Part shown: piece by piece, positions 40,941 to 41,890 of the stretch | How positions within the stretch are numbered: position 1 is the first letter of the stretch | How the letters are laid out: each line of letters starts with the position of its first letter | Origin: Bacteroidota bacterium | Lineage (GTDB): Bacteria > Bacteroidota > Bacteroidia > Flavobacteriales_C > GCA-002722245 | Reading direction: 5' to 3' | Length of the DNA: 64,000 bases | NCBI GenBank assembly: GCA_026390935.1 | Contig: JAPLEZ010000145.1 | Span: 143,961-207,960 of the forward strand | Translations under genes and position numbers: made by a program | The notes under the pieces: model-generated | Seen by the model: only the letters and a program-made list of their open reading frames with translations | Databases searched by the model: none | Told to the model about the DNA's origin: nothing

Positions 40941-41561
40941 ATGGGAAACAGAATAGTGATTATTGAAGACAACAAAGACATTAGGGAAGCCTTTACTCTT
41001 TTATTGAATTTGCGAGATGATTTTTTAGTGGTGAATGCCTATTCCAATTGTGAAGATGCACTAAAAAATATAGAAGAAGATGCTCCACATATCGTATTGA
41101 TGGATATTGATTTGCCGGGTATGAGCGGTATTGAGGGCACTAAAATCATCAAGAAAAATTTGCCTTCCGCCAACATCATCATCATCACTGTTTTTGAAAA
41201 TGGCAAAACCGTTTTTGATGCGCTGTGTGCAGGTGCTACAGGCTATTTGACAAAGAATAGCGATAAGGACCGGCTCATGAGTGCCATCGACGAAGTGATT
41301 AAAGGCGGTGCGCCAATGAGCAGTAAAATTGCGCGATTGGTGGTACAGTCGTTTCAAAAAAACAGGAACTCACCCCTCACTTCCCGTGAAACGGAAATAC
41401 TTTCGCAAATCGCAGAAGGGAAGAGCTACACGAATATTGCCGATACCATTTTCATTTCAAAAGAAACAGTGAAATACCATATCAAAAACATCTACATCAA
41501 ATTGCAGGTGAACAATAAAGCCGACGCAATTAAAAGAGCGAACGAGGATAGGTTGATTTAA
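40941..41561 (+). CDS. NarL/FixJ-type response regulator with LuxR HTH
   Basis: RIVIIEDNKDIREAFTLLL...HIVLMDIDLPGMSGIEGTKII; SPLTSRETEILSQIAEGKSYTNIADTIFISKETVKYHIKNIYIKLQVNNKADAIKRA. Confidence 0.93.
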   Translation: MGNRIVIIEDNKDIREAFTLLLNLRDDFLVVNAYSNCEDALKNIEEDAPHIVLMDIDLPGMSGIEGTKIIKKNLPSANIIIITVFENGKTVFDALCAGATGYLTKNSDKDRLMSAIDEVIKGGAPMSSKIARLVVQSFQKNRNSPLTSRETEILSQIAEGKSYTNIADTIFISKETVKYHIKNIYIKLQVNNKADAIKRANEDRLI

Positions 41562-41881
41562 CCCACCCCTAGCCCCTCCAAGGAGGGGAATTAGTTACTG
41601 AACCATATTCAAATCATTTTCAGGAAATGCCAGCTAATTAATTCCCCTCCTTGGAGGGTGATGACCCAGCATTTGGCAAATCGGCTTTTTTATTGAGAAT
41701 GCTCCGCGCTCACGGCTTCGCCGGCGCGGAATCTTTTTGTTTAGAGCTTAATACGAGGCGAAGCATCTACACAAATAAATACCGCGCCGGCGAAGCCGTG
41801 AGCGCGGAGCGTGAAATCTTAGTTATTTGCCGATTTGCCAAATGCTGGGACATCACCCCTTGGAGGGGTTAGGGGTGGGTT
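41560..41881. mobile_element. Nested palindromic element: REPIN-like arm family C, interrupted by a second and third inverted-repeat element
   Basis: Outer arms aacccacccctagcccctccaaggaggggaa (41560-41590) and ...ccttggaggggttaggggtgggtt (ending 41881); core ttagttactgaaccatattcaaatcattttcaggaaatgccagctaattaa. Confidence 0.8.
41659..41855. mobile_element. MITE-like insertion (197 bp) inside the right arm of the family-C element
   Basis: 27-bp TIR tgatg(a/t)cccagcatttggcaaatcggc at both ends (1 mismatch); flanked by direct repeat ccttggaggg (41649-41658 and 41858-41867). Contains a further 29-bp perfect inverted repeat gctccgcgctcacggcttcgccggcgcgg (41701-41729 / 41782-41810). Confidence 0.75.
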
Positions 41882-41890
41882 GATTCAATA

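Follow-up and report, generated by a model that had tools for sequence, protein, structure and literature searches.

A nested extragenic palindrome in a Bacteroidota genome, probably built by insertion of an IS1595-type miniature element into a REPIN-like element

Insertion sequences of the IS1595 family make 8-bp target duplications and have ends beginning with GG (PMC8101967, PMC12561309), and one member of the family, ISApl4, uses A/T-rich sites (PMC12561309). Insertion into REP palindromes has been described for ISPsy8, ISPpu9, ISPpu10, ISRm22, IS1397 and IS621, elements that belong to the IS3, IS110, IS4, IS256 and IS5 families; IS1595 is not named in the 2006 survey of such elements (PMC1525189). 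Two further kinds of repeat invite comparison: REPINs, whose published form (PMC3116915) is our reference for the elements called A and D below, and ERIC and other enterobacterial MITEs, which are short, palindromic, intergenic and non-coding (PMC10969869). A literature search joining IS1595, MITE and palindromic, with subscription literature outside its reach, returned no paper.

The locus compared here with these systems lies in genome G000 (3.76 Mb, 155 contigs), in a window of 64,000 nucleotides, the whole stretch of DNA analysed, corresponding to bases 143961-207960 of contig C92. G002, G003 and G004 are sister genomes of the same genus, and counts across the whole of G000 come from pattern searches. 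The nested stretch sits immediately 3' of a response-regulator gene (open reading frame 40941-41561, + strand, with a C-terminal LuxR-type HTH judged by eye), the stop codon of which (41559-41561) runs into the beginning of the outer element, A, at 41560. A preliminary description had read these 322 bp as three nested inverted repeats, and all three are present: outer inverted arms at 41553-41583 and 41858-41888 (90% complementary), transposon ends at 41656-41685 and 41829-41858 (97% complementary), and a core inverted repeat at 41701-41745 and 41766-41810, the REP palindromes of A itself pairing at 41574-41597 and 41635-41658. By chance alone, none of the TIR, REP and core motifs should occur more than 0.1 times in the 64-kb window.

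Element A has the form of a REPIN, an inverted REP pair with a short spacer, extragenic and present in G000 at a low number of copies (~8). In the window its left part (41560-41656, + strand) comprises an intact left REP (palindrome 41574-41587), a long-type spacer and the first half of the right REP, the rest of which, recognised by comparison with intact A elements, follows at 41858-41881 (+ strand). The intervening unit occupies 41657-41857 (+ strand, GGTGATGA...ACATCACC) and measures 201 bp, not the 197 bp first reported; it is bordered by two copies of CCTTGGAG, at 41649-41656 and 41858-41865 (both + strand), that match at 8/8 positions. Excising the unit together with one octamer restores a regular 113-bp A with a long spacer, 96% identical to the copy on contig C47, which bears out the proposal of a REPIN-like element interrupted in its right arm. 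Uninterrupted A elements, which that proposal called for, exist at six other G000 loci (C13:46861, C37, C47, C81, C87 and C139), and G002 contains four. A second interrupted A of G000, at C13:22.8 kb, has a short spacer and is closest to the C87 copy (89.5%); the two interrupted elements are 73.5% identical to each other. Because they represent different spacer subtypes, each nearest a different intact A, two A copies must have been struck independently. The third interrupted A, at G004:C89, was entered in its left REP through the same octamer on the other strand, so that one A octamer has been struck three times across two species.

The 201-bp unit consists of a shell and the core D. As had been suggested, it carries terminal inverted repeats (TIRs), though of 29 bp with one mismatch instead of 27 bp (GGTGATGACCCAGCATTTGGCAAATCGGC at 41657-41685, + strand; GGTGATGTCCCAGCATTTGGCAAATCGGC at 41829-41857, - strand; delimited by inverted-repeat search and copy alignment). 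A 208-bp query detected further copies in G000; by the pattern of the ends, both shell ends occur together at nine sites, of which six are in G000, one is in G002 and two are in G004. Compared side by side, the copies begin GGTGATG and finish CATCACC, with few substitutions. Among ten two-ended elements compared from four genomes (G000, G002, G003 and G004), the flush 8-bp flanks are perfect repeats at five (window, CCTTGGAG; C90, CCTTGCCG; C12, CTTACAAT; G002:C5, TTTTCAAA; G004:C89, CTCCAAGG), match at 7/8 in two (C13 and G004:C116) and match poorly in three (C92, C136 and G003:C25), a one-base shift improving C136 to 8/9 and G003:C25 to 11/12. The duplication made by shell insertion is 8 bp. 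A flanking target duplication had thus been correctly recognised, and direct repeats do recur at other copies, at 8 bp rather than the proposed 10; at the window the direct repeat reaches 10 bp because the GG ends of the element extend, by chance, a run of G in the target. The unit is not tied to one pair of arms, other flanks being seen at other sites.

The C136 copy (G000:C136:7799-8339) is flanked by two palindromes of the F type described below, and its immediate flanks are inverted, not direct, copies (CCTCCGAG / CTCGGAGG), representing either a shifted 8/9 duplication or a later rearrangement between repeats. Within the TIRs an inner block of 5-6 bases varies between elements (CATTT, ATTAA, CTATTT, TTAAAT) and agrees, exactly or nearly, across both ends of any one element, a pattern that suggests several transposase variants may have been at work. 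The window element is short, bounded by TIRs and without a transposase gene (the longest open frame across it is a 73-aa chance frame), and it belongs to a set of multiple dispersed copies with target duplications, as is expected of a MITE; its 8-bp duplication and ends starting GG are those of the IS1595 family.

The core D (41701-41810, + strand, with arms at 41701-41729 and 41782-41810) is 110 bp long in the window and ~130 bp elsewhere, and its boundaries, GCTCCGCG...CGCGGAGC, are identical in the window and at shell-free G002 sites. The 29-bp perfect inverted repeat reported earlier inside the unit is found at the outer ends of this core. D too takes the REPIN form, an inverted palindrome pair with a short spacer and extragenic copies. 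The core is not the same in every shell. An inverted repeat of the form GGCGATAG..CCTTCC fills the C12 and G004 copies and a CCACAGAGACACAGAG inverted repeat the C136 copy; the C90 copy holds half of D together with a GTAGAG-type repeat. Because the shell with D is common to G000 and G002, D would have been captured before the element spread.

The layering does not stop there. A fourth element (CATTACTGTTC...GAA(C/T)A(G)TAATG), itself containing further inverted repeats, interrupts the D core at C92:18451 and at G002:C5:79030, where its insertions are flanked by the 9-bp direct repeats GGCGAAGCC and GGCTAAGCC. The first of these two fourth elements, at G000:C92:18583-18820, outside the window, reads CATTACTGTTC...GAACAGTAATG, with the 9-bp direct repeat GGCGAAGCC and another inverted repeat within. 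The reverse nesting occurs at G002:C27:136546-136842, where a D element lies within a CATTACTGTTC element; the latter is itself placed in a TTTCAGATT..AATCTGAAA palindrome. For the window, the earlier reading of three separate repeat families in a relative age order given by their nesting holds, and we infer at least two mobilising activities behind the nested repeats; with nesting in both directions, no single order is valid for all copies.

A complete element with related ends is present in a sister species, at G003:C25:3776-4744. It is 969 bp long, ends in GGTGATGACCCATTAAATGGCAAACC and a near-perfect inverted copy of it, and encodes a single 301-aa open reading frame, whose product is a predicted IS1595-family transposase by its matches to DDE_Tnp_IS1595 (PF12762, 4.3e-37), Zn_ribbon_IS1595 (PF12760, 6.1e-6) and the NCBI IS1595 model NF033547 (7.5e-56). 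It is an autonomous relative of the window element, with a TIR that is not agcatttggcaaatcggc: the two share GGTGATGACCCA and GGCAAA only, the middle block being different, so that the window element has ends in common with a transposase-encoding relative apart from the middle of the TIR. Sixteen further G003 contigs (records JAHEZM01), at their start or finish, contain only the outer ~80-120 bp of an element whose ends read GG[CT][AG]ATGACCCATATTAAGGCAAA. These broken elements comprise at least three end variants, and one of them codes for a stretch 55% identical to the C terminus of the transposase. Assemblies break inside elements that are present in many copies, and G003 probably holds many full-length IS1595-type copies that were lost in assembly.

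In the 155 contigs of G000 no autonomous partner with the same TIR was found. The only IS1595 gene over the cut-off there (C92:229578-230231, outside the window) was considered as the mobiliser and rejected, its flanking inverted repeat, read by eye as GATTATCCGYAATTRTACCAG, being different. The IS1595-type element around it (C92 ~229314-230314) has a 314-aa open frame, and a short CCGTAAAT..TACGG inverted repeat just 5' of the transposase gene is common to this element and that of G003:C25. Since the G000 assembly holds no transposase with matching ends, the mobiliser of the window element can only be inferred; it would be a transposase of the IS1595 group. An order-wide transposase search (10 genomes of the order) yielded no further close relative, and a scan for the end motif in one genome per species across 84,980 species gave recognisable copies in this genus only. 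Four of the matches elsewhere were inspected (L128, L143, L145 and L146); all are single, lie inside or across long open reading frames and were taken as chance. Other matches fall, for example, in Clostridium, Lachnospiraceae, Thalassospira and Sphingobium.

Target choice was analysed over 26 insertions, 10 two-ended and 16 single-ended. The 13 bases preceding the element follow, with few exceptions, a Y8-N-R4 pattern (pyrimidines at the first eight positions, any base at the ninth, purines at the last four), and the switch from pyrimidine to purine, present at all 26 insertions, is often the centre of an extragenic palindrome. The mean Y8-N-R4 score is 10.9/12 at insertions versus 6.0 in the background, scores of at least 10/12 occur in 24 of the 26 flanks versus 4% of intergenic background positions, and dyad symmetry of at least 7/10 pairs is seen in five of 10 restored sites versus 11% of intergenic positions; with a background drawn from one 64-kb window and sites within one repeat family that are not independent, the corresponding probabilities are small, not exact. 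Many target sites fall in three repeat families: A; E, whose pattern TTCTCCCTTT..AAAGGGAG has 32 matches in G000, 61 in G002 and 10 in G003 (both strands counted) and, when reversed, none in these three genomes; and F, seen in insertion flanks as CCCTCTC..GGAG. A strong target preference of this kind, not coincidence, explains the nesting, and it would reflect recognition of the dyad or of its hairpin or cruciform.

We consider it highly probable that successive transpositions gave rise to the 322-bp palindrome, with an IS1595-type miniature element moved in trans into A. In such a history, A, a REPIN-like palindrome, would have settled where the response-regulator gene ends in its stop codon; separately, D, likewise REPIN-like, would have become the core of an IS1595-type miniature element. 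A transposase of the IS1595 family, acting in trans on the GGTGATGACCCA...GGCAAA ends, would then have placed this miniature element in the centre of the right-hand REP of A, with duplication of 8 bp. Weighing on the other side are the lack of a transposase with these ends among the G000 contigs, the middle TIR block that differs from that of the G003 element, the three poorly matching pairs of flanks, dyad symmetry that is clear in only five of 10 restored sites, and the dependence among insertions into a single repeat family.

The alternative that fares best, although we judge it unlikely, is that the host retains the nested palindrome for a function of its own, for example in terminating transcription of the two-component operon or in stabilising its mRNA at the 3' end, transposition being incidental. 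In nine of 11 copies, the window included, A overlaps the stop codon of a long open reading frame or is no more than 12 bp away from it (no stop codon was placed for copies L154 and L159), making a terminator or 3'-end role possible, and the fold is extremely stable: as single-stranded DNA the nested stretch reaches -129.5 kcal/mol versus -44.5 +/- 4.3 for dinucleotide shuffles (z = -19.9). Copy L158 has a convergent stop codon on either side, at a distance of 1-2 bp. A host function leaves the duplications and dispersed copies unexplained, however; the insert is present in only two A copies of G000, and an Rfam search gave no family at threshold, only sub-threshold matches to microRNA precursors that are due to the hairpin shape. 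A host role of A could in any case be compatible with the transposon account.

That the shell is instead of REPIN type and owes its movement to a RAYT (Y1 transposase), its direct repeats being by-products of REP palindromes, appears very improbable. RAYT-type Y1_Tnp genes are present in G000 and its relatives and every layer is palindromic, but the 8-bp duplications also occur at targets other than A (CTTACAAT, TTTTCAAA, CCTTGCCG), related ends in the sister species enclose an IS1595-family DDE transposase, and neither the A REP palindrome nor the D motif adjoins any of the 27 Y1_Tnp loci examined in G000 and relatives (flanks up to ~1.5 kb). A RAYT origin of the shell was rejected on this lack of linkage and on duplications that point to a DDE enzyme. 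Least credible of all is a single complex element of A, shell and D copied as a unit: C13:22.8 kb does repeat all three layers as they are arranged in the window, but A, the shell and D are each found apart from the other two or in other combinations, and the two composite loci differ in the subtype of their A, which refutes it as a general account.

Beyond the insertion of an IS1595-type miniature element into A, we entertain tentatively, and with slightly less than even confidence, a broader reading. An IS1595 lineage, encountered in this analysis only in one genus of Bacteroidota MAGs, may recognise extragenic palindromes, by their dyad centre or extruded hairpin, as places where it can land safely; its palindrome-carrying miniature derivatives would offer new targets with each insertion, and extragenic DNA would grow as self-propagating nested palindromes. 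If this is true, IS1595, absent from the 2006 survey (PMC1525189), joins the families for which extragenic palindromes serve as landing pads. The locus is a clean case of layered repeats explained by target preference, nested copies with duplications give the relative order of repeat-family activity in one lineage, and the G003 element with an A-type REP forms a donor-target pair suited to separating recognition of the dyad from that of the hairpin.

With ERIC and the enterobacterial MITEs the window element shares its short, palindromic, intergenic and non-coding character, and differs in a layering that can be traced through duplications; we know of no sequence kinship between them. A and D resemble REPINs and BIMEs as dispersed, extragenic, inverted palindrome pairs with a short spacer, but no linked RAYT was found and neither has an obvious GTAG tag, for which reasons we call them REPIN-like only. 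GG ends, 8-bp duplications and an autonomous relative with a zinc ribbon and a DDE_Tnp_IS1595 domain tie the element to the IS1595 family, from which the window copy departs in having no transposase, in carrying another mobile palindrome as its core and in targeting palindrome centres. Like the REP-targeting insertion sequences, it returns to a single exact position within a REP palindrome; unlike them, elements of this type strike several unrelated palindrome families. Targeting of REPs by insertion sequences was thus known, and what is new here is an IS1595-type miniature element that both lands in and carries extragenic palindromes.
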